This document shows positions 31,186-46,128 of a stretch of DNA of 64,000 nucleotides, piece by piece. The notes under the pieces were generated by a model that did no database searches, was not told where the DNA came from, and was given only the letters and a program-made list of their open reading frames with translations. How positions within the stretch are numbered: the first letter of the stretch is position 1; every line of letters begins with the position of its first letter. A program made the translations under genes and the position numbers. Source of the stretch: Diphasiastrum complanatum (taxonomy: Eukaryota; Streptophyta; Lycopodiopsida; Lycopodiales; Lycopodiaceae); assembly GCA_029204225.1 (NCBI GenBank), contig CM055112.1, positions 27,673,063 through 27,737,062 of the forward strand. The letters run 5' to 3'.

Positions 31186-32504
31186 GTGGCACAAGCTCTT
31201 GAACTTTTATACCAACAAATTCAAACCACTCAACTTCTTGAAACTAATAAAAAAAACCAAGACTTAGAGTCTAGGTTAGCCAATCAAAAGAAGCATGTAG
31301 TTCCACCTTCCGTAAAAGTGTTTAAGGGGGAGAATAAAGATGGAAATTTACAAGTGGTAAGTTGTTGGCTAAATGTTTGGAACAAATACTTTGCCATGAA
31401 CCAATTCCCTGAATCTGAAAAGTTATCCACTGTCACCATGTTCCTTGAAGGAAGAGCCTTAGTTTGGTGGGATGACTTAGTTGCAAAGGGCAATCAATCT
31501 TGTACATGGGACGATTTTTGCAAGCTTTTTAGAGATTATTTTCTACCACTTTTAGATGACTATGAACACTTCCAAAAGTTGAGTCATCTAACCATGAATA
31601 AAGGTTTGGAATAATTTATTCAAGATTTTCATGAGTACTTGAATCCACTTTATAGTGACATGTTGCCTAAGGTACAAATGTTAATGTTCATTGATGAGTT
31701 ACCAAAAGATTATCAAGTGGATGTTCATATGAACCATCCAAAAATCCTAGAAGATGCTATTAGGGCTGCGAAATACTTTGATGACACACCTAAGCCACCT
31801 AGGGGTCAACAGCCTAATGAGCAAAAAAAAAGTTTTCAATTTAAGAGCAAGGGTAGGAAAGCAGTTAGTGAAACACATCCCAATTCCAACAATTCTAAGA
31901 AAACCAAGAAAAACTTTAAAAACCATCAAGGTAACATTGATAAAGCTGAAGCTCGTAAGAAAAACGTGTGCTTCAAGTGCAATGGTGAGGGTCACCTTGT
32001 ACGTGATTGCGTCAAAAACAAACTTCAACCTCAGGTAATCTATCTCGAAGTAATGAGATGGATGTTTGTTTCCTTAGTTCTTTAGTTTTTGGATCTAATA
32101 ACCTTATTTGCATTAAAGGTAAAGTTAATGATTAAGTTGTTAATGTTTTTTTTTGACACGAGATCCACTCATAACTTTATTAATGTAAATTTGGTGCAGA
32201 CGCTAAACCTTCCTACCAAAAAAAGAAATATCGTGTGACAATGACATCGAGAAGTGATTCCAATTTGATAGACTTTGTTGTTCCTGATGTAGAATTGCAC
32301 ATTCAAGATTATTTTGAAAAATTAGAATTCCATGCTGTTGCATTAGCTAATGTAGATATTGTTCTTGGGCAACAATGGCATTTTGATAAGAACAAGTCAT
32401 TGAGAATTGATTTTGTTGAAAAATCTTTATCTTTTATGCACGAGAATTCTTTAATTAAGATCAAGGCTAGTTTAAGTGTTGACACTAAAAACCCTAAACC
32501 CTAA
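31186..32504 (+). pseudogene. Gypsy copy B gag and protease
   Basis: The first frame (about 31186-31614) has a coiled-coil-like start (QALELLYQQIQ, NKKNQDLESRLANQ) and the Retrotrans_gag core (NVWNKYFAMNQF, FLEGRALVWWDDLVAKG). A TAA stop at 31612 interrupts it before FIQDFHEYL. The second frame to 32085 includes FIDELPKDYQVDVH, a basic linker, and the zinc knuckle CFKCNGEGHLVRDC (all four ligands intact). The aspartic protease follows after frameshifts (traces near 32150; 32235-32504 with IVLGQQWHFDKNKSL). A run of three telomere-type repeats ends this frame at 32492-32512. Confidence 0.85.
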
Positions 32505-33475: not shown

Positions 33476-34317
33476 CTAAGCCGAAGGGCTAAGAGCCCAC
33501 TGGTGGTGTGGATGAAGGATATGAATAATTGTCATTAGAGGAATTCTGAATCCAAAAAAGACCCATTAAGGAATGCCACTTAGATTGACAAAGTTTATTA
33601 ATGTAAATTACCAAAATAAATTCATTTTTTGTTCAAATTCTTTTTCATTTCTGTCCGCACTAGTTTCGAAGCTTAACCATTCTATGTACACTACCGTTTG
33701 TAGTTCATTTAAAATAGCATAAATTTTTAACCGTAGCTTCGATTGAGACGAAAATTATACCGTTGAAAAGCGCTCAATGAGAGCTTTCCAATGGTACCCT
33801 AGATCACCTACTTCCAAACTACCATTCAAAAGTTATGGCCGGTCAAACTTTCAGACCAAAAAGAAAAGGTCCACATATCTTTCTTGTGCGCGGATAGAGT
33901 ACCCTCTCACTGAGAGAGAGATATGTGGACTTTTTTTTTTTTTGAGTCTGAAACTTTGATTGGCCATAACTTTTGAACGGTAGTTTGGAAGTAGGTCATC
34001 TAGAGTACCGTTGGAAAGCTCTCGTTAAGCGCTTTTCAACGGTATAATTTTTGTCTTAATAGGAGCTACGGTTAAAAAGTTATGCTATTTTAAATGATAT
34101 TGCATATTATACTATGAATAACATGTCATGCTTGTGGGCTGCCCTCGGCGCCGAATTATAGCATTATTAAGAAAACTTTTTTTTTTCAATTCTAATGAAC
34201 TACGTTACGTAGATTTCAAATTTGAGTGTTTTGATTGGTCCATGTATAAGCAAAATTTGAGAAAAAATATAAAAAATATCTTTACAAAGGGTCTTTTTTG
34301 GATTTATAACTCATCTA
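33476..34317. mobile_element. Insertion with long inverted repeat (foldback/MITE-like)
   Basis: Between the RT and RNase H of Gypsy copy B lies about 840 bp of foreign text. Its centre is an imperfect palindrome: left arm about 33706-33890 and right arm about 33911-34096, pairing CATTTAAAATAGCAT with ATGCTATTTTAAATG at the outside and GGTCCACATATCTTTC with GAGATATGTGGAC at the inside. The arms are about 90 percent complementary by eye, separated by about 20 bases. No open frame codes a recognised protein. Such a foldback could be a miniature inverted-repeat element; transcription would give a long hairpin RNA. Confidence 0.75.
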
Positions 34318-34835
34318 ATGTTTGAGTTGCTTAAGAAAAGTGTCACTTCGGCACCAATACTAATCATTGACGATCCTAATAAGGCTTTTGTGGTTAGGAC
34401 CGAAACTAGTGATTATGCTATTGGAGCCATTTTGATGCAGGATGGACATCTTGTGGCTTATGAAAGCAAAAAACTCAATCCTGCTCAGTCTAGTATTGTA
34501 CCTATGAGAGGAATTGTTTGCAATTGTTCATTCCTTGAAAATTTGACGACATTATTTGTATGGAGCTAGATTTGAAGTTTTGACAAATCATCAGAATCTT
34601 CGATATTTCTGTGATGTTGTAGATTTAAAGGGGAGACAAGCTAGATGGGCTGAGCTGATGCAAATCTTTGACTTTTCTATACATTATTGGAAAGGAAGTC
34701 AAAATACTCTAGCAGATGCATTGAGTCGGTTACCAGTTATTAATCAATTGTGCTTTATCGTTACAGAACCGGGGTTGTTTCAGTCTCTTCAAGAACTATA
34801 TGAGTCTGATCTCTTTTTTGAAAAGTATTGACAAC
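34318..34835 (+). pseudogene. Gypsy copy B RNase H
   Basis: The frame starts at FELLKKSVTSAPILIIDDPN and continues AIGAILMQDGHLVAYESKKLNPAQ, the RT/RNase H signature of Ty3/Gypsy, then shifts at about 34556 to GARFEVLTNHQNLRYFCDVV, ARWAELMQIFDFSIHYWKGS and ADALSRLP. One frameshift is visible; the rest is well preserved. Confidence 0.87.
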
Positions 34836-34849
34836 AAGTACTTTCGGGG

Positions 34850-35745
34850 GTCGATTTAGGTTTGCAAGATTCCTCAAGTCAGTGAAAGATTGAAACGGAT
34901 TTTCTAATTCGAAACAAGATTTTGTTTCGTAAAGAAAAAATGTGTGTACCGGAGAATGACACTGTAAGAGCCCAAATCTTGCATGAGTGTCATGATAGTC
35001 CATGCACAGGACATCCGGGTATACAAAAAACACTTGATTTAGTTCGAAGGCAATTTTGGTGGCCTAAGATGAAAAGTCAGGTAGAGGCCTATGTACTTAA
35101 ATGTCCTAAGTGCTAGTTAAATAAAGCAGAGAGGCTAAAAGCTAGTGACCTATTACATCATTTAGATATTCTTACCAGAAAGTAAGAAAGTATATCTATG
35201 GATTTTGTGGTCGGGCTTCCACGTACAAGGAAGGGCCACGATTCGGTTTGGGTCATTGTTGATAGACTTACGAAATCTGCTCAATTTATTCCAACGAAAA
35301 CTACTGTTAAAGCTTCAGAACTAACTCAACTGTTTGTCAACTATACGGGCTGCCTTGCGATATTGTCAGTGACCGTGACCCAAAATTCACTGGGAATTTT
35401 TGGCAAGCAGTATTTAAAAAGTTGGAAACAACTTTAAGTATGAGTTCTACAGATCATCCAGAATCAGACGATCAAACGGAAAGGACCAATCAGATGATGG
35501 AGGATATGCTTTGAGCATATGTGGGCCATCGGCATTCTGATTGGAAACAATATCTTCCACTGGTGAAATTTGCATATAACAATGCAAAACATTCAGCGAC
35601 CAGATTCAGCTCTTTCATGCTTATGTATGGTTTTCAACCTCGATCACCAATTAGTGTTGGCATGAAAATATTAGAGGAGTTTTCAATATCAAAAAGACCC
35701 TTTAAGGAATGCCACGTAGGATATAGAAAAATATCAAAATAAAAA
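34850..35745 (+). pseudogene. Gypsy copy B integrase
   Basis: The HHCC zinc-binding region is at 34922-35116 (LHECHDSPCTGHPGIQKTLDLVRR, abbreviated as HECHDSPCTGHPG, and VLKCPKC). A TAG stop follows. The catalytic core begins with [23 protein letters not shown], the first catalytic Asp in the MDFV block, then a frameshift near 35350 precedes [16 protein letters not shown] text. The C-terminal part (WKQYLPLVKFAYNNAKHSAT, FMLMYGFQPRSP) ends near 35740. No 3' LTR was recognised; the element may be cut by the next region. Confidence 0.85.
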
Positions 35746-36196: not shown

Positions 36197-38700
36197 ATGA
36201 CATTATATCATTTACGTGTGGATATCCCTATTGATTTGGCACCTTTGTAGAGAAGAGGAGGCAAAGGAATTCAAATATCTGTTGAGGATCGTTCTCGTTA
36301 CAGGGCAGAAGGAAAAAAAAAACTTGGATTTATGGATAGATGGAACATTATATCCACAAAATCCAAGCACTTTGACACATCCCACATTCTCTTCAATAAC
36401 TCATTTAGTTACATGGATATACAATGGGCATAGTGGATTACTAGGATATTGTGAAAGATTGTAGAACCATGGAAAACAACTTTATATGAATTAAGTCACT
36501 TTTAAGAAGGTGAGTTAATTTGGATATCATCTTATTGTTAGAATAGAGATTGTCATCTCCAAAAGACGTTAGAAGAAAATGAACAACTTAAAAAAAAATG
36601 AATCATTATAGAAGATAACAATCAATATCAAATCAGAACTAGAGCAAATGCAATCAATCTTACAGTCTATTCATATTGAAAACTTACAATTATTGAAAGA
36701 TGTGGATTTGGCAAAGAAAAAGGCTGAAAATAAGAAGCGAAAGCGACAAAGTTGCAAGGATATTCAAACGCTTTCAAAAGGAGGTTATCAAAATAGAAGG
36801 ATCCGTGCATTCAAGTAAGCATATTCTGATTTTTGTAAGTTTTTCAATGACATTTGGATTTAATTTCAACTATGGTGATATTCTGTTAACTATCTATTTT
36901 TTTTGCAGATCTGCATTAGTAGCTCCTCAGGATATTAAAGACAAAGCTTCACTAGGAATGTCATTGGGCACAATATTGACTTGCAAATCCACTGAGCGTA
37001 TCATGATGAACAATAGGATTTCAAATGTAAAGTGTAAAATAGTAGAGCCTTTGATGGTGGACATTCAAATTTTTTTAGATAAGACTATAGTTCAGGGTGC
37101 TTGTGATTTTGCAGGTATTAGCAGGGAAGCATATGCAACAATATTTAAACTAATTAGAGAAGCTTTTAAGCAAGTTCAAATTAGAAAAGTCCCAATCCCT
37201 AAGACATATCACTTGAAGAAAGAGAAGGATACATTAAACATAGGTATGCATAAGATCACTGGAACTCCATTTCATATTGAGGAGGTGTATGAAACTGATG
37301 GAAGATCGATATTCTATAATTCATCAAACAATTTATTTGTTGATCTAAATTACTTGCTGAGATACATTGTCACATTCTATGATATAACCTATGAGATGTG
37401 AATGGCAAAATAATCATAGTAATTAAGTTAGATCAGTCAGAAATTGTGAAAGGGCAGAAGATGGAGAGGGTTAGTATAACTCTCATGAATGGTGCTCTAT
37501 CACAAACAGAGAACCAAGAAGATTTCAGATTCAGTGTCCAGTTAGAAAATGATATATGGTGGTTGGCAACGTTTCAGGTAACTAGCCTCATTATTACATT
37601 ACATTCATTAAATAGTATTTATACATTGTAAACTAAGTCTGATTAATTCTTTGGACAGGTGCTGAAAGAGGATCATGATATATTATCATGGATATTCTCA
37701 AGGACATCTTATCCTAGGATCATCAAGGACCATATGGATGAAGGACTTCTCAATGTTCCAAGAGTTGGAGACTTCAATGTTGAATGGCACTTAGCAGATG
37801 ATTTGAAAACATTGAAATGTATGTATAATGTCTCTCACGGTGCTACATCAAAACACCCTTGTTTGTATTGCATGAAAATGGCAAAAGATGTAACTAGGAG
37901 TACATGAACTACTAGAGAATATGCAGATCCAAACTGGAAGCCTATGCTGCCTATCCCCTTAAAAAATGTGCATGTTTGCACTCTTCATGTAGAAGTTAGA
38001 TTAATAGAAAAGATCATTTATCTTCATATAGTTTTTGCTTGGAATACTAAGCCAACATCATTAGCAAAGGAAGCTATCTCTCGATCAGAAGATGTTTTAT
38101 CAAAAGCAGGACTCCATAAAGGACATGTCAAAATTTAAAAGATGAAAAACTCACGTCATTTTCTATCAAATCATACTGGTAAGGCTTCTAACATTCAACA
38201 CTCAGTCTGGACAGATATTATTGCTGCTAAGAAAAAAAAAACTCTGATATTGATAAGAAAGTTGTCCAAAGGACTTGTGTCGAGTTTGTTAATGCAGTAT
38301 CAAAAGCATGGGAAGAAGATCACATCACTCATTACATGGTTAGTATAAAATTTTCAAAATGCTTTTAAATTTTCATATATATTTAGATCCAAACATAAGA
38401 CTAACATTATGATTTTGACATATGCAGCACATACTAAGAGATCATATAGCATTTCTTGCAAATACATATGGAAGCTTGAGTGTATGGTCATCACAAGGGA
38501 TGAAGAAGTCACACTGGCAAGCACGAGCAACATTTCATCGAAATACACAACATGGAGAAACCAATGAAAAACGAAACTACATTTGTCAATTGTTTCAGTG
38601 GTTCTACCGCAGAGTTCAGATTCGACACATAACAAAGTCCACACAATACAACAAGTTTAGAAAAGCATGCAAGTTCATACAGGAAGCGAAAATTAGATGA
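36197..38700 (+). pseudogene. Four-exon transposase-like gene, unrecognised family, decayed
   Basis: Exons: about 36197-36814, 36909-37577, 37659-38338 and 38428-38700, joined by good GT-AG introns. Exon 1 gives MTLYHLRVDIPIDLAPL, then a Lys/Glu-rich coiled coil (LEENEQLKKK, ELEQMQSIL) and a basic stretch KKAENKKRKRQ, a likely nuclear localisation signal. Exons 2-3 have GQKMERVSITLMNGALS, HDILSWIFSRTSYPRI, FNVEWHLADDLKTLKCMYN, HPCLYCMKMAKD and VCTLHVEVRLIEKI. The last exon has VWSSQGMKKSHWQARATFH, RNTQHGETNEK and LFQWFYRR before a TGA. The C-x2-C and C-x2-H elements and the following E-rich blocks resemble transposase-type proteins found in scattered eukaryotes, but I cannot name the superfamily, nor identify D-D-E residues. 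At least eight stops (TAG, TAA, TGA) and about three frameshifts (near 36590, 37395 and 38235) show that it is dead. The surviving protein would be roughly 745 residues. Confidence 0.6.
36815..36908 (+). other. Intron 1 of the transposase-like gene
   Basis: Donor CAA|GTAAGC and acceptor TTTTTTTTGCAG|A follow plant consensus, and removal joins AFK to SALVAPQDIKD in phase. Introns of this quality in a relic imply the ancestor was transcribed by the host machinery. Confidence 0.75.
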
Positions 38701-38834: not shown

Positions 38835-40323
38835 CTATTCATCATCAGATCTTGTATCAGATTCTATGGCAGTATTGTCATGAAGAAATTCTTTGCTAGC
38901 ATATGCATCTAATAGATGTGCATTATTCTTATTTTCACTAAGCTCAATATAAGTGGAATACAATGAATAATCCTTAAAGGAACATTCCCATCAGTAAAAC
39001 CTAAAATGTTCAAAACATAAGATCTTTTGACAAAAATGATATATTTATGTCCTCCTAGGTAAAATGATAAAGCTTTAACTGCCATTATAAGACTCTCCCC
39101 GACTAGGCTCAGCTTGGAATGAGCAATACAGATCTCATTCTTCAGGAAATGCCTAAGATAGTAGCCTAGTCCACTGTCCCTCTGGAACGAGGATGCGTGT
39201 TGTCTGAAACCACCTCGTCTCGCAGCAAAATCATCTATTATGAGAGCATCCTGGAATAGGAAATATGTTAGCAAAAACACATTCAGTGATTGAAAACATT
39301 CAAATGCAAGGAGGATTAAACACTTACACATTCTTCATCATCAGCAGCAACCAGATTAGGATGATCAATATAATGACCACGTCCTAAAGTGGAATTATTA
39401 GTGAAATGCATTAATGATGGACGAGGGAAGCCCACCTGGGATTGAAATGCCGTGAATTCTTCATCGGATGGTCTGCCTTGCCCATCCTCAACTATATTCG
39501 ATAAAGTCTTATTCAAGCATTCTTCACCGGTCATAAGTCCCTCCTCATCATCAAAATTAATACCAGCAACAAGGTCATCTGTTTCAAAATCTACAAAGTT
39601 GGAGAATTCGGAAATTGTGCCAGATAATAAACATAGAACCTCGTCCTCACGATAGTCAAAAAATTTACATAAATCAGTAGTAGCAAAATATACATTAATA
39701 TAATATACAGACAAATTGAAAAGACATTTTGCCTCCTCCATAGATTTGGATTCATCATCAATTGTATTTTGGCCAATGAAAGAATCCCGAAGAACATCAG
39801 TATTTACATCAATAAAGTCACTTTTCTTATCAAGAGTGTCGATAAGAAAGTAACTGATATCCTTAATAGCTGACTGAATAGAGGATGGTGCAAAAGGAGG
39901 GTCAGCAACAGAAACATCATCATCATCTGGGATCGGAACTAACAAGAAAAGTACGAAACCACTCTGAAATTCAACCAATCGACATTTCTTGCTGTAATAC
40001 GGACACATTGAACTGCTTTTCAAAAGATCAAACAATTTGGTAAACATTCTATCCAGTCTATGTCTGAAAGCTGAGAAGAAATGAACAAGATCAGTATAAT
40101 GCATGTACTGGAGTGGACCTATGGAGAAAACAGGCTTACTAAGTATATCTTTGAATCTGACATAATGGTCATAAAATACGTTAGAATTTGGTTGTGCAGT
40201 CCTAAAAACATGTAGATATGGCCTGAATAGAATGTGAAAATAGTCTAGGTTTTTAGTAATCCCAAATTCACTAAGAAATGAACTCAAGCTTGAATCTTGT
40301 GAGGATGATGAGGAAGAGGCCAT
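38835..40323 (-). pseudogene. Ser-rich acidic protein of unknown function, two exons
   Basis: I start the gene at the ATG at 40323 (MASSSSSSQDSSLSSFLSEF); the frame is open upstream to 40371, but that part consists of the promoter motif. Exon 1 (40323-39328) encodes about 332 residues with Phe/Tyr-rich blocks (YFHILFRPYLHVF, SIGPLQYMHYTDLVHFFSAF), acidic stretches (PDDDDVSVADPP, DDEEGLMTGEE) and no known domain. An intron (39327-39251; donor GTAAGT, acceptor TTCCAG) leads to exon 2, starting DALIIDDFAARRGGFRQ, then GLGYYLRHFLKNEICIAHSK, SLIMAVKALSFYL. A one-base frameshift near 38970 diverts the original frame, which would end with an acidic tail (IESDTRSDDE) and TAG at 38835. The basic patch followed by two helices in exon 2 faintly recalls a histone fold (H2A/H2B type), which I do not claim. 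It is divergently transcribed from the CENH3-like gene. Confidence 0.55.
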
Positions 40324-41099
40324 GGCAGTAACGTGAATATTGCACTTGTGCACGAGGGAGAACTGAACCAAAACTAACTATCAAGATGGCGCACAAGAGG
40401 GATATGTACGGCAGGCAGAATCCGAATATCGCACTTGTGTGCGAGTAGGTATAGAACGGAAGGCAATGAGCGTGCACAAGAGCGATATGTCGCGAATCGA
40501 GAATGAAAAAGATAAAAAATTAATCGGTTTTCATGACACGTGTCAAATTTCAATTGGACTACAGGCGCAGGCACGTGTGAGGTGACACCAACACACGTGT
40601 GAAATGACACCTACACACGTGTCGTGTATTCATTCGTTTGCTCGACAACACATGTCGCTCTCGCATAGATCGTACAAATCTCACACGTGTAATGTGACAG
40701 AGTGACACGTGTCGCTCTAGCATTTGTCCGTACAACTCCCACACGTGTGACATGAGTTCTTTCATACGTGCGAACCGCAATATAAAATCACAAACTTCGA
40801 TGAATTTTTTTCACTTTTTTTTAGGCTCCGCATATGGCACTTGTGCGCGTCTTTCACAATCAAAATTCCTCCTACCGCCTTCCATGCGCACAGGTTCGAT
40901 ACGTCTGCCTACGTGTCACCCCATATCGCACTTGTGCGTCTTTCCTCAAAACTAATCATTCTCTCTGATATTTGGCTCGCACAGGTCCGATATACTGTAC
41001 ATTCTGTCCGTACATATCGGTCCTCTGCGAGTTCTTTATCACCCCTCCCTGCTCATCCTAACTGTCATGCACAAGTCCGCTATCACATAGTACACGTCC
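40324..41099. promoter_or_regulatory. Bidirectional intergenic region with repeated motifs
   Basis: Two motif sets occur between the divergent genes. Motif 1, close to ATATCGCACTTGTGCG, is forward at 40337-40356, 40426-40445, 40832-40849 and 40923-40938, and inverted or diverged at 40389-40405 (GCGCACAAGAGGGATAT), 40472-40488 (GTGCACAAGAGCGATAT), 40886-40903, 40979-40992 and 41067-41083. It clusters in the 170 bases next to the minus-strand gene and the 270 bases next to the plus-strand gene. Motif 2, a CACGTGT/ACACGTG core (G-box-like), occurs about eight times in the middle (40535-40750). The outer motifs could bind an element-encoded protein and the inner ones host bZIP or bHLH factors; both roles are inference. 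Confidence 0.7.
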
Positions 41100-42845
41100 A
41101 TGGATAGGAGAAAGCAGACAAGGAGGGACTTCTTCTCTCTCGGCTCATCCTCATCCCCTACGGTTGCCATCACACCACCCGCTAGACCTAGAACGCGCAA
41201 CCGCAGCAGGTGGCTCTCTGAGATACGCAAGTATCAGAGATCAACAGCTCTGTTGATCCCAAGAGCTGCATTCTACCGTGCTGTCTAGAACATAATAAGA
41301 AATGATCTTGGACAGCTGGTTAGATTCACACCCAGTGCTCTTCAGTGCCTTTAGGAGGCTGCTGGAGATTACATTAGTCTTTTTTTTTAGGATTCTTTTT
41401 TGCTTGCCATCCATTCCAAGAGGGTTACCATAATGCCCAAGGATTTTCAGCTCATGAAGAGGATGAGAGATAGGTACTGTAGGTTACATATATCTCAGCC
41501 TGCTGCTCCTAGACCAACTCTTGTAGATAGGACTGATCTTCCTACGAAGCATCCTAGGAAGCAGACAGCCCCCAAGCGTGCTCCTAAGAAAGTGAAGCCT
41601 AACCCTCCAAATTCTATGAAGCCTAACCCGGAATCCATTGTAGATAACGCTGCTGTTGATAATGTTGTAAATATAGCTACATCTATTTTGGATACCCCTT
41701 CAATTGCTATAGATACTACACATCCACATCCACCTCCTCCTCCAAATTTTTATACATATATAGATTCGGATGATTATCTTCAATTTGAGAAAGACATATC
41801 TGATGCTATAGATACTATTGGTACTCCCTTTTGCTTTAGACTAGATGCAGTTGATTTTAGTATTAATTTTAGACTTATAGATTGCTTGGATTGCAAAGTC
41901 AGACGGGCTCCTATCAGTGATCCTGTGATAGAGTCCGGGCTCACACTCTTGCAATATGACATTGCAAGAGATTCATCAAATGACTTGCTGGTGCTGAGTA
42001 ACTTTCTGCTTCAGGCCTTCAAAGAGAACAATGACACATTGTCACAGTTTTTGACTAGTAAATTCACACCAGCAACAAAGTATTTGCTCATACCTTATCA
42101 TACGAAGTAAGATATATTAAATGCTTCTTGTTGTTTTATGCATTAACATTGGCATTGTCAATGGAAATAGTTCTCAGAATTGCAACTAAAAAAATTTCAA
42201 TCTTATTTTGCAGTGACCACTGGAGTTTAAACCAGATCTCTATTAAAAGATCTGTAAATAATATTATTAAAGGTTTTTGTGTCAAGATGAATTCGGTGAG
42301 AAATACGCATAAGGATGTAGATATGTACCTTCCATATCTAAGTAAATATATTCCTACAGACGTTTCCCATTCCGTGGATTGGCAGATCATCAGTTTGGAG
42401 GTAAATTTTGTCTTTCTTAATAGCATTTTGAAATCAGTATTCTAATGAAATATTTTCAATCTAATTCATTCTGTTTCATAATTGATTTCTTGTGTGCTGA
42501 ATTATTTTGCAGTCACCCCAGCAAAATGATTCATTCACCTGTGGGTGGTACAATGCCAAGTTATTTTTAGACTGATTCGTCCTTTAACAAGATGTTGATA
42601 TTTCTAAGGTAATAAATTCTGTTTATTCTTATTTTGGAATCATGATTAGTTTTCTATTATGGTGATGTTTTTGGCCATTACTAATACATGAATGTTCTAT
42701 TTTGCAATTTACACTTCCTGAGTACACATCAAGCCAGGTGTACAAATTTAGACAAGAAATTATCCTGAGTATACTGGCTAGGGCAAGGCTTCAGCCTCCC
42801 ATTATTGATGATGGTGCAAAGGATGATGTAGTTATACTAAATTAA
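41100..42845 (+). pseudogene. CENH3-like histone H3 fused to Ulp1/SENP-type protease
   Basis: Exons: 41100-42106, 42214-42400, 42513-42608, 42708-42845; about 476 codons. The N-terminus MDRRKQTRRD echoes the H3 tail (KQT conserved), followed by a Ser/Pro/Arg-rich tail. The histone fold follows: WLSEIRKYQRSTALLIPRAA (alpha-N), a loop 1 one residue longer than in H3, FTPSALQCL*EAAGDYI (alpha 2) and AIHSKRVTIMPKDFQL (alpha 3). T-x-x-A-L, EAA-x-DY, D-S-x-L-x-AIH and KDF-x-L resemble CENH3 more than canonical H3. A basic Pro-rich linker (KQTAPKRAPKKVKP) leads to a C48 peptidase-like domain: YLLIPYH then DHWSL (catalytic His), MNSVRN where D-S is expected (Asp changed to Asn) and PQQNDSFTCGWY (Gln and Cys retained). 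Three TAG stops interrupt the histone fold (41286, 41352, 41391), TGA and TAA stops follow in exon 3, and the last acceptor is CAA instead of CAG. Histones package DNA and Ulp1-type proteases cleave SUMO; a joint role is inference. Confidence 0.75.
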
Positions 42846-42985
42846 GATAAAAAAAAAATATAGATAGCATAGAACAAAAATACATGTATAGACTTCATAG
42901 AAAGATATACATTGATATATCAAATGTTGCTCCAGTTTATAGATTTGGGAGCACAAAATACATGTATAGATGCCCAACTTGGGCT
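42846..42985. other. Right flank of the cluster and junction to Copia
   Basis: The text contains two similar words, AACAAAAATACATGTATAGA (42872) and CACAAAATACATGTATAGA (42952), about 80 bases apart. From about 42986 the minus strand reads Copia family 2 integrase. No inverted terminal repeat was found to pair with the left flank. Confidence 0.35.
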
Positions 42986-44898
42986 TTCATTCCACGATCA
43001 TTGCAGAAATCAGTGAATCGGTTTGAGATGTATTCTCCACCCCGATCAATTCTGATCTGCTTCACCTTGTTTCATGTGCATCTTTCTGTCCAATTCACAT
43101 ACTCTGTAAATTTGTTAAATGCATCTGATTTATTGTGAATGAAATAGACTCTGGCAAACTTACTGTGATCATCAATAAAGGTGATATAATATTTTGAGCC
43201 TCCTACTGAGATCACGTTGAAAGGTTCACAGATGTCTAAATGTACTAGCTCCAGAATCTATGTCGTTCTATAGGAGTCCTTGACAAAAGGAGTACGTGAC
43301 ATCTTACCCTTTATACATACATCACAGGTCATCGAACTGGTTGCATTCGAGATGCTCACCCCTATGATTGCTCCATGATGGCTTGCTTGATATAGTGTTA
43401 TTGAATTCATATGGCATAGTCTCCTGTGCCATAGAATGTCTGATGAATCATCATGGGTTTGATGCACGTGATCTGTAGGTAGGCGTATCTTCAAGTGATA
43501 CAGGTTGTCTTTTCTTCTACCTTGAGTAATCACTGTACTGGTGTCTTCATCAACAACATTGCATGCTTCGTCTGAGAACGTCACACACATCCCTGCATCA
43601 GCTATTCTTGCCACTAATAGCAAGTCCTGCTGCAGCATAGGCATGAATAGAACATCTTCGAGCCGTCTATCTCTGTCGTTAATGTTGGGCCATAGTGAAC
43701 CAATACCATTCACTTGATGCTTTGATCTGTCTCCAAGAATAGTAAATCTTGATGGATCTGCACTTCGGAAATCAGACATTATCTGTCTTGATGTAACAAA
43801 GTGCGAGGTAGCTTCTGAATCAAGGATTACCTCCTGTGTGTCAGGTGTTGATACTGCACACATGTTTGCATAGATGTAGGCGGTCGAATTTCTGTGATTC
43901 GATCTTTCTTCGCCCATCTTTGAGCTCTCTGGCTCCTCGACATAGGATGAACTATTATTGTTCTCCTGTCTGCTTTGAGCTTGTTTGTTTCTTGGGTTCT
44001 GGTGGCAATCCATGGCTGCATGACCCTTCTTATGACAGTGAATACACTCAATTTTTGGAATTAGCCAACACAAATCGACAGTATGTCCTTCGCGTTTGCA
44101 TCTCACGCAGGTCTTCTTGTCTCTGCTCTATTGTTTTGACCTTCCTTTGTTCTTCCATTTGCCTTTACTGACTCCTTCTGCTTGCTGATCTCGATCATAC
44201 TTTCGGTCTGACTTCCTCTTAGGCTTGAATTTCTTCTTAGTCTTTTCTTTGTTGCTGTAAAGAGCTTGGTCATAAGCATCCTTGTGATCAAGGTGCTCTC
44301 GAGCATCGACTTCTTCTCAAATCTCGACAACTGCCTTTTCGAGTGTCATAGTAGGATCCTTTGCTAGCAGCGTTCTGGTTGTCTAAAAGGATCTTGGTAA
44401 GGCTCTCAACAGATAGGTAAGCTGCTTTTCTACTGATACTGCATTCTCTGCTCCGGAATTGTGTAATGAAAGAAACAGATCATTCATCTTTTTGATAAAG
44501 GATGTGAGGTCTTTGCCATCCCATTACAGGTTTGTCAGCTGATCTTCAAGAAGCATGATCTGATTGCGTGATTTCGTCTGAAATCTTATGAGTAAAGTAT
44601 CTCACGTCTCTTTTGCTTTAGAGAGTGTAGTCAGGTTTTGATCCAGGCTATCCTCGATGGATGATGACAACACGGCTACTGCCTTGTCATTCTTCTCTCT
44701 CCATTTGCGTAGCTCCTTGCCTGTAGTTGTAGGCATCTCCTCGGTGCCATCTACCCAGGGAAATAATCCTTCTCCCTTTAGTATAAGAGAGGTCTTAACC
44801 TTCCATGCTAGGAAGTTAGATCCTGATGAGTCGAAGATTGTACAGATTTTTGATTGTATACTGCTTATTGAAGTCATTGTTGTGAATTGTGTTCTCAC
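42986..44898 (-). pseudogene. Copia family 2 Gag-protease-integrase (minus strand)
   Basis: From 44898 down: Gag start (MTSISSIQSKICTIFDSSGS, LSSSIEDSLDQNLTTLSK), a degraded middle, a basic segment, two zinc knuckles (CRRCKREG-type, first partly lost, and CIHCHKKGHAAMDC), then protease (VILDSEATSHFVTSRQ, with E replacing the G of D-S-G), pre-integrase (ILWHRRLCHMNSITLYQ, CDVCIKGKMSRTPF), and the integrase up to K-Q-I-R-I-D-R-G-G-E-Y at about 43000. It then stops at the junction with the unusual cluster. The same family as 57925-59660 and 62767 onward; this copy has a 282-codon open frame (44106-43258). Confidence 0.88.
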
Positions 44899-44976
44899 TT
44901 GTTAATGGTTCTTTGTCTTGAATGTTTTGCCTCCTCCTGGATCTGATAGCTTTGTGGCTATGTCAGACTATGATTG

Positions 44977-45068
44977 GCTCTAATACCACTGATGAGTTCA
45001 GAAATGTCAAGAACGCTCTGATACCACTGATGCAGTCAGAAACATCAAGAACACTCTGATACCACTGA
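44977..45068 (-). repeat. Three tandem copies of the primer-binding site region
   Basis: A 38-base unit containing GCTCTGATACCACTGATG occurs at 44977-45014, 45015-45052 and, in part, from 45053 to the LTR start. On the minus strand each contains TGGTATCAGAGC or a one-base variant, the initiator-tRNA primer site. Copies 1 and 2 also share the following CAGAAA-x-x-TCAAGAAC text. Confidence 0.8.
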
Positions 45069-45688
45069 TGCAGAAATTTTGCAAATCTATCAGGCTCTAT
45101 AACAAAACGAAACTTGAACGAGCTCTGATAGTCGCGAATGAAAGTAATTCGGATGGAGTTTGGATATGATTGATGGTCATTGCCTGCTATATCATTCCTA
45201 CAATCCTCCAGAAAGTAGATAGACATTGCTGACCTACGTTATAAATTAGTTCAACATTCAACAAGATTGAACCAATGTGTGGAATAGATAAGACAACTAA
45301 ATGAGATACACGAGCAATAGCAGACAGTAATTCATTCGAGATCAGACAAGATTTAGAATGATATGTGCATAACAACTACAATATCATCTATTGATCTTCT
45401 TTATTTCAAGCATTGTGTGATAGACTCACACAGCACATTGACATGAGAGAAGTTGTGTTCTCCCACAAACAGTGTCTCGCTTACTAGCGGACTTCTTGGA
45501 TCTCTGTGGATCCTGCTTACAAAATTGTCTCGTTCACAGACGAACTTCTTTTTTTATATTCTCTATTTTCTACTTTTTATGCATCTAGCAAATTGCATAT
45601 ATTCAGAGTAGCATATCTGATTAGATAGATTAAACAATCTATAACTAATCATGGATTACAAGAGTGGTGGGTTAGGCACGTCCTAACG
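45069..45688 (-). repeat. LTR of Copia family 2 (minus strand)
   Basis: The left end TGCAGAAATTTTGC adjoins the primer site and the right end matches the inverted LTR start TGTTAGGACGTGCC seen at 61884. Segments such as AACGTAGGTCAGCAATGTC and the GATTGTAGGAATGATATAGC block are shared with the LTR at 61884-62650. About 620 bp. RNase H of the same family lies outside it. Confidence 0.8.
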
Positions 45689-45810
45689 CTCTTTTGTTGA
45701 CGTCATCATATCAGATCATGGATCTGTACTTTATGGTACTCGTTTGATTTTTTTGATCTTCTGGAGCGTGAAGGGTTTTGTGTTGCGAACATTTTTCTTT
45801 CGCGAACATT

Positions 45811-46128
45811 TCACTTTCGTGTCTTTTCGTCAAATTGGGAGTTGAGAGCTAGCAGAGCTTTGGTAACAGAAAAATTTTGTTTCTTCAGCTCCCTCTCAAA
45901 GCGTGATAGCTTGATGACTCCAAGACTGCTCCTTTGTTTCTCGAATAGACCTTTGTCTAAGGCCTTTGTGAAAATGTCAACAACCATCTCTCTCGTTCCA
46001 GTGAAGGTAGTCTGCAGCTTCTTCTTCTTGATCAAATCTCTTATCAAGTGGTATTTGATTGCAATGTGTTTCATCCTTGAGTGAAACACGAGATCATTTG
46101 TGAGATGTATTGCGGATGTATTATCCAT
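45811..46128 (-). pseudogene. Copia family 2 RNase H C-terminus
   Basis: The minus strand encodes DNTSAIHLTNDLVFHSRMKH, IKYHLIRDLIKKKKL and VDIFTKALDKGLFEKQR, which are the RNase H and C-terminal polyprotein motifs of Copia, followed by a variable tail (VTKALLALNSQFDEK). It sits upstream, in its own transcription direction, of an LTR and a Gag of the same family, so this is the 3' end of one element joined through one LTR to the 5' end of another. Confidence 0.85.

Follow-up and report, generated by a model that had tools for sequence, protein, structure and literature searches.

A spliced gene at 41100-42846 (+) of the window, the whole stretch of 64,000 nucleotides of Diphasiastrum complanatum DNA that was analysed, runs in a single reading frame from a histone H3 fold through a linker into a Ulp1-type C48 peptidase. 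It is almost certainly a dead copy of a gene that belongs to a DNA transposon which has four genes and terminal inverted repeats and is repeated in the genome, and it is equally close to certain that the encoded protein is a transposon-specific histone H3 variant with a basic linker and a Ulp1/C48-type domain. A function is proposed more tentatively: we put a probability of about 40% on the protein being an anti-silencing factor that is nucleosome-competent, not methylatable at K9, and equipped with a SUMO protease or SUMO-binding domain.

The fused gene and its copies

The element and its gene are laid out in the window as follows.

33533..34320, unstranded: non-autonomous short relative that has both termini and lies inside a gypsy frame
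35669..35703, +: 5' terminal inverted repeat, TTAGAGGAGTTTTCAATATCAAAAAGACCC..., with TA as its first two bases (CA in other copies)
37099..38625, +: decayed transposase gene in several pieces and frames (tblastn, 26-43% identity to sister-element transposase pieces)
39053..40323, -: ORF2, putative protein whose first part is an open frame of 335 aa beginning MASSSS, in divergent orientation to the histone gene
40324..41099, unstranded: intergenic region in which the motifs ATATnGCACTTGTG and ACACGTGT recur
41100..41189, +: H3-like N-terminal tail, MDRRKQTRRDFF..., with K4 present and D at residue 9
41190..41489, +: histone H3 fold (alphaN, alpha1-3), with TAG in frame at codons 63, 85 and 97
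41490..42106, +: linker with a basic PRKQTAPKRAPKK stretch and the N-terminal Ulp part, up to the end of exon 1
42214..42400, +: exon 2, Ulp domain, with a DHW of the catalytic-His type
42513..42608, +: exon 3, with PQQNDSFTCG for the Gln and Cys positions and two in-frame stops in the window copy
42708..42846, +: exon 4, encoding the C-terminal end, after an intron without a final AG in the window copy
42991: end of homology to other copies, with a minus-strand copia beyond (ORFs within 43072-46128)

Exon 1 (41100-42106) keeps one frame from the H3 fold into the linker despite its three in-frame TAG codons, the tail accounting for 30 residues, and exons 2, 3 and 4, which hold HW and PQQNDSFTCG, are phase-consistent with it. 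With TAG read as Q, exon 1 of the window matched the Pfam Histone profile (PF00125) with 82.9 bits (E 2.8e-23; cut-off 26.4). Without read-through, the open piece before the first stop still scored over the cut-off (27 bits, E 5.6e-06), and the piece after the last stop scored under it (20.5 bits, E 5.9e-04). The closest PDB sequences to the window histone were H3s, with E values of about 1e-19. The scores for Peptidase_C48 (PF02902, cut-off 20.7) were 28.6 bits for the window gene and 29.8 bits for that of a further copy, L037. The preliminary description had read an H3 fold continuing in frame into a Ulp1/C48 domain on three further exons, with an HW and PQQN...CG core; the profile matches of both domains and the phase of exons 2-4, on which that core lies, bear this reading out.

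The two best PDB matches to the Ulp part of L037 were both Ulp1, and both were weak (E 0.032 and 0.29). In the former alignment, the His, Gln and Cys positions are retained, and the position of the catalytic Asp is not Asp. The domain thus resembles Ulp1/SENP C48 peptidases in its profile score and in these three positions, but differs from them in the replaced Asp and in being fused behind a histone. Since the Asp of the triad is absent by this weak alignment, protease activity is doubtful.

The window copy itself carries five in-frame stops (exon 1: three; exon 3: two), and its last acceptor is not AG, hence this copy is dead. A chance origin of the fusion was rejected because both domains score over curated cut-offs and are found again in many copies; two separate genes were rejected because the exons are phase-consistent and the intron spacing is fixed; and an ordinary host H3.3 was rejected because the host H3.3-like genes, which are multi-exon, are distinct (L052 and L053).

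The search covered the 1.745-Gb assembly of 5,176 contigs, in which the window lies at C21:27673063-27737062. All 120 scored places for exon 1 (the best 120 of 9,710 candidates, including the window) matched at 80-99% identity and spanned at least residues 26-330, several rows having identical scores and possibly being duplicates of each other. Exon 1 was free of stops in 25 of these best 120 and had one to five stops in the other 95. A match to Ulp exon 2 was likewise scored at 150 of 150 places (the best 150 of 4,045 candidates). At least 23 of the 120 exon 1 places are followed on their own strand by a scored exon 2 after 90-107 bases, at least 22 of them after 103-107 bases; ten more hand-picked copies, known through their histone domain, have it at 716-745 bases, and in two C6 copies it lies about 9.75 kb from the histone. 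Among the matches listed, 117 of the 150 scored exon 2 places had no histone within 4 kb on the same strand, which may or may not reflect a real separation of H3 and Ulp. One of the copies read, L055, has all four exons open with GT/AG borders, its usual stop codon being changed. In L054, exon 1 is open, exon 2 has a stop, no GT follows exon 3, and exon 4 is shifted.

Six family-B copies (see below) were compared by the Nei-Gojobori method, with stop codons left out. For the H3 part, one pair had a dN/dS of 0.62 and the other 14 of the 15 pairs had 0.13-0.35; for Ulp exons 2-4 it was 0.27-0.50 in eight of the ten pairs with enough codons and above 1 in the other two, which have low dS; the linker gave 0.31-0.83. 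The histones of family A yielded a pooled pN/pS of 0.37 (12 distinct among 16 sequences). These ratios show signs of purifying selection. The stop at codon 97 (window 41388-41390) is common to the window, L038 and L050, i.e., three of the six aligned copies, and implies that this branch was still amplified when its histone was no longer full-length and that an intact gene is not needed in each moving copy.

The transposon

The element copy in the window begins near 35669, and the copia element truncates it at 42991; gene 4 and the 3' terminus were not found beyond this point within the window. Its family, B (window, L037-L040 and L050), has the order transposase, ORF2, H3-Ulp and gene 4, with ORF2 and gene 4 on the strand opposite to the other two and with parts lost from some single copies. 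Family A (L031-L036, L041, L043-L045 and L051) consists of transposase and ORF2, followed by two genes of opposite strand, H3 and gene 4. The family-A H3 begins with the canonical MARTKQTAR, carries a long insert rich in proline ahead of the fold, and ends after the fold; no Ulp match was found inside family A elements (tblastn, E 1e-3). The preliminary description had set the fusion against the possibility of separate genes: the fusion stood, being repeated across copies, although the sister family has an H3 gene without a fused Ulp, and the two domains therefore do not always act together. At a third kind of locus, that of family C (L042:6721-9545, on C13), two different histone H3 genes flank ORF2, which is perhaps the ancestral arrangement of families A and B. 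The second histone and the linker are kept at this locus (L042/L057), and tblastn detected no Ulp exons there.

No Pfam match over the cut-off was obtained for the ORF2 region 39316-40377 or for nine sister-element pieces covering transposase, ORF2 and gene 4, and the predicted structure of the transposase had a mean pLDDT of 37. Gene 4 (L035:6530-7720 (-) and L050:53-856 (+)) is multi-exon; its C-terminal part gave a weak PB1 match under the cut-off, and its N-terminal part is, to our eyes, reminiscent of a BAH domain.

The termini read CATTAG...CTAATG, continuing as CATTAGAGG... in family B and CATTAGGGCCC... in family A, and the inverted termini match each other in L035/L046, L032 and L037/L047. 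The exact 35-base terminus of family B occurs in 1,084 copies in the genome (544 forward and 540 reverse; the reversed control gave 0 in both directions), and some neighbouring termini are opposed in orientation at distances of 8.1-9.5 kb. Together with the 120 scored exon 1 matches, the inverted repeats support the earlier view of an element-borne gene, which is repeated across the genome. Insertion leaves no target-site duplication where it could be read: the bases on either side of a short insertion of family A in L039 (3286-4371) are neighbours at window 37970-38030, none of them repeated, and the gypsy frame runs on directly across the insert at 33533-34320 without a duplication. The flanks of L035 and L037 have no direct repeat, and in L032 the two flanks have TG in common, a match of two bases that chance could produce.

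Several known groups were compared with these features. MULE elements have a MULE transposase domain and a target duplication of 9-10 bases; MULE/VANDAL was rejected on the Pfam-negative sister pieces and the lack of a target duplication. CACTA elements carry CACTA/CACTG ends and a 3-base duplication, and were rejected on the ends observed here and the lack of a duplication. Helitrons are not known to have terminal inverted repeats and were rejected on the matching inverted repeats of this element, and PIF/Harbinger ends were rejected from the observed termini. The Pfam-less transposase and the duplication-free insertion may point to a group of transposons that is as yet undescribed.

In the region that separates ORF2 from the histone gene, ATATnGCACTTGTG is found four times, which are all of its occurrences in the whole window, and one to two times in the corresponding region of L037-L039. 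Six ACACGTGT palindromes lie within about 210 bases (window 40536-40748) and are also repeated in that region of L037-L039. Both motifs are possible sites of a two-way promoter or of protein binding; the ATATnGCACTTGTG repeats would fit self-recognition, e.g., by ORF2, and would fit promoter sites equally well.

The histone in relation to H3 and CENH3

In H3 register, the tail of the window histone has R2, K4, Q5, T6 and R8. The H3-like KQT near the N-terminus that had been noted before is present, as part of a tail that is H3-type in register and not CENH3-type. The tail begins MARTKQTARDP in family A, with D at residue 9 in eight and G in two of ten distinct sequences, and MDRRKQTRRDF in family B, with D in all eight distinct sequences. 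The single family-C sequence begins MARTKQTAREP and has E, and the second histone of L042 begins ARAKQTTRAD and has A, counted from its first A. Residue 9 is thus never K (10/10, 8/8, 1/1 and the second L042 histone), whereas K4 is kept in 10/10 sequences of family A, 7/8 of family B, 1/1 of family C and in the second L042 histone (1/1), and K9 is present at 15/15 host H3 loci read. The search patterns for families A and B leave residue 9 free, as does the host pattern that gave the host count; the pattern for family C and another host pattern fix it. The sample is not random, as loci were mostly found through the Pfam histone score, which favours H3-like copies. ARKS is absent from the family-B tail, which does not have the canonical K9 and K27.

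Identity of the fold is 38-46% among families A, B and C and 45-54% between these and host H3, and the distances between families that share a gene set point to a histone that is old within the element. A 12-row alignment of the fold (four sequences of family B, six of family A, one of family C and one host H3) left six H3-numbered residues invariant, which we take to be R69, H113, R116, D123, L126 and R129 of H3, presumably serving in DNA contact and the H3-H3' bundle. The predicted structure of the H3 fold had a mean pLDDT of 54 and gave 0 Foldseek matches at E <= 0.001.

Plant CENH3 and CENP-A are resembled in the divergent H3 fold, in LIP after alpha1 (families A and B), and in family B also in the longer loop 1 and in the T of T-x-x-A-L that opens alpha2. 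The one extra residue in loop 1 relative to H3, as described before, was seen in family B; families A and C have none. On the other side stand the H3-type tail, the Ulp fusion, at least 120 copies and a separate branch in the tree. Against three plant CENH3s, the family-B fold is 47-52% identical, compared to 50-54% for host H3, and element histones are no nearer to these CENH3s than to host H3. The tree placed the element histones on one side and H3, CENH3s, CENP-A and Cse4 on the other (86/93, weak support); it contains three plant CENH3s and long branches, the split is not starred, and the tree tool warns that joins may be false. The proposed identity as a CENH3 is not supported by fold identity or tail. 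The suggested phylogeny, which covers these three plant CENH3s, sets the H3 part outside host H3 and, with weak support, apart from CENH3 as well.

A host CENH3 was not found in the genome search. One candidate, C11:15454779-15454931, is 61% identical to rice CENH3 and was rejected as a lone diverged H3 C-terminal fragment with no upstream exons within 3.5 kb.

Proposed function, known systems and competing readings

If the protein acts as an anti-silencing histone, its H3 part would pair with host H4 and be incorporated into nucleosomes on element DNA. With a residue other than lysine at position 9 and no ARKS further along, such chromatin would be unable to take H3K9 (or K27) methylation, while K4 would remain available on the element nucleosomes. 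The Ulp domain would act locally on SUMO by cutting it off silencing proteins; alternatively, should the missing Asp render the Ulp inactive, the domain could bind SUMO as a decoy. Plant transposon silencing consists of H3K9me2 coupled to DNA methylation, and the outcome would be relief from this loop, leaving the element expressed and mobile. We infer expression, nucleosome incorporation, targeting, SUMO action and anti-silencing of the H3-Ulp protein from its sequence. The loss of K9 may simply follow from a relaxed constraint on the tail; CENH3 tails are not known to carry K9 either. In its widest form, the proposal describes a DNA-transposon superfamily of its own, without target duplication, each lineage of which carries a selected H3 with K4 and without K9, one of them tethered to a SUMO protease, and forms nucleosomes that the host H3K9 loop cannot mark; as a whole, this is doubtful. 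If the histone does enter chromatin, a selfish element would overcome silencing by its host with a nucleosome of its own, and a natural K9-less H3 would provide a test of H3K9-dependent silencing.

A transposon with an H3 gene is already known, since fungal hAT transposons carry H3-like genes, as described for Pyrenophora tritici-repentis (H3L; PMC3538342) and for Pseudocercospora fijiensis and relatives (PMC6710886). H3L of P. tritici-repentis matches neither H3 nor CenH3 (PMC3538342), and P. fijiensis harbours hundreds of copies with one to two H3-like sequences per element, comparable to the two histones at L042, and inactivated by RIP (PMC6710886). Both the fungal elements and those described here are DNA transposons with terminal inverted repeats and H3-like genes. 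However, the hAT domain and the 8-base target duplication reported for the fungal elements (PMC6710886) were both not found here, the former by Pfam on the sister pieces, and membership in the hAT H3L elements is not supported. The term ulp1 has 0 occurrences in PMC6710886 on the fungal elements. While the fungal reports treat the H3-like genes as captured, partly decayed cargo, the present histone stands out by signs of selection, an Ulp-like fusion in one family, and the keeping of K4 with the loss of K9. No report of a transposon H3 with an Ulp fusion, with K9 replaced, or in plants was found in the open-licence literature, which is weak evidence of absence.

Anti-silencing by a protein of the element itself has a precedent in VANC, which acts through repeated non-coding motifs to remove methylation from its own family and to release that family from repression, recognising the DNA sequence directly (PMC5735166). 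KIU (Kaonashi) is a VANC group with a Ulp1 domain in Arabidopsis VANDAL non-TIR MULEs, and the role of this domain is not established according to a review (PMC13317346). The H3-Ulp protein is similar in being an element-coded accessory protein, with a Ulp1 domain in the case of KIU, but no histone fold is described for VANC or KIU in the sections consulted, and transposase and ends are different.

Four other readings compete with an anti-silencing histone. The H3 and Ulp genes could have been transduplicated long ago and carried along without function; DNA transposons that have captured genes have been described in both plants and fungi (PMC13317346, PMC3538342 and PMC6710886). The stops in the window copy and in 95 of the best 120 exon 1 matches (of 9,710), as well as the one stop common to three of six copies, agree with such passive cargo. 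We nevertheless consider it unlikely in view of the low H3 dN/dS in 14 of 15 pairs, the pooled pN/pS of family A, the H3 core residues that stayed invariant although the folds diverged so far, and the 25 copies of the best 120 in which exon 1 is still open. A free K9-less H3-Ulp might instead titrate H4, chaperones or SUMO-dependent silencers and not mark element chromatin at all. Such a silencing decoy draws on the same sequence evidence as the anti-silencing histone, and its action in trans fits the shared stops, but the conserved DNA-contact residues suggest entry into nucleosomes, and general titration would presumably damage the host; it appears quite improbable.

The protein could also serve transposition directly, the histone compacting or wrapping the element ends and the Ulp freeing SUMO-held host repair proteins during excision and duplication-free insertion. 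Termini without target duplication do imply an unusual strand-transfer step, and both main families have the histone gene. However, copies with the shared stop were still amplified, so that action in trans would be required, and a role of this kind is a long shot. Finally, the preliminary description had suggested that the protein enters centromeric chromatin and guides integration or segregation there. LIP in families A and B, the extra loop 1 residue and T-x-x-A-L in family B speak for it, as may the exact family-B termini (first 100 of 1,084), of which the 80 on C1 are dense in two blocks, at 64.97-66.68 Mb (15/80) and 95.0-100.6 Mb (27/80). With the KQT tail of H3 type, the weakly supported tree position apart from CENH3, at least 120 copies, and an even spread of the 67 exon 1 places on contigs of known length (KS p 0.73; 99 of the best 120 on C1-C24), we regard centromeric targeting as very unlikely.

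Among the exact termini on C1, three pairs of neighbours lie 32.3-32.7 kb apart, as if they belonged to a larger repeated unit. The window also contains copia and gypsy elements and a short stretch of AAACCCT at 32489.
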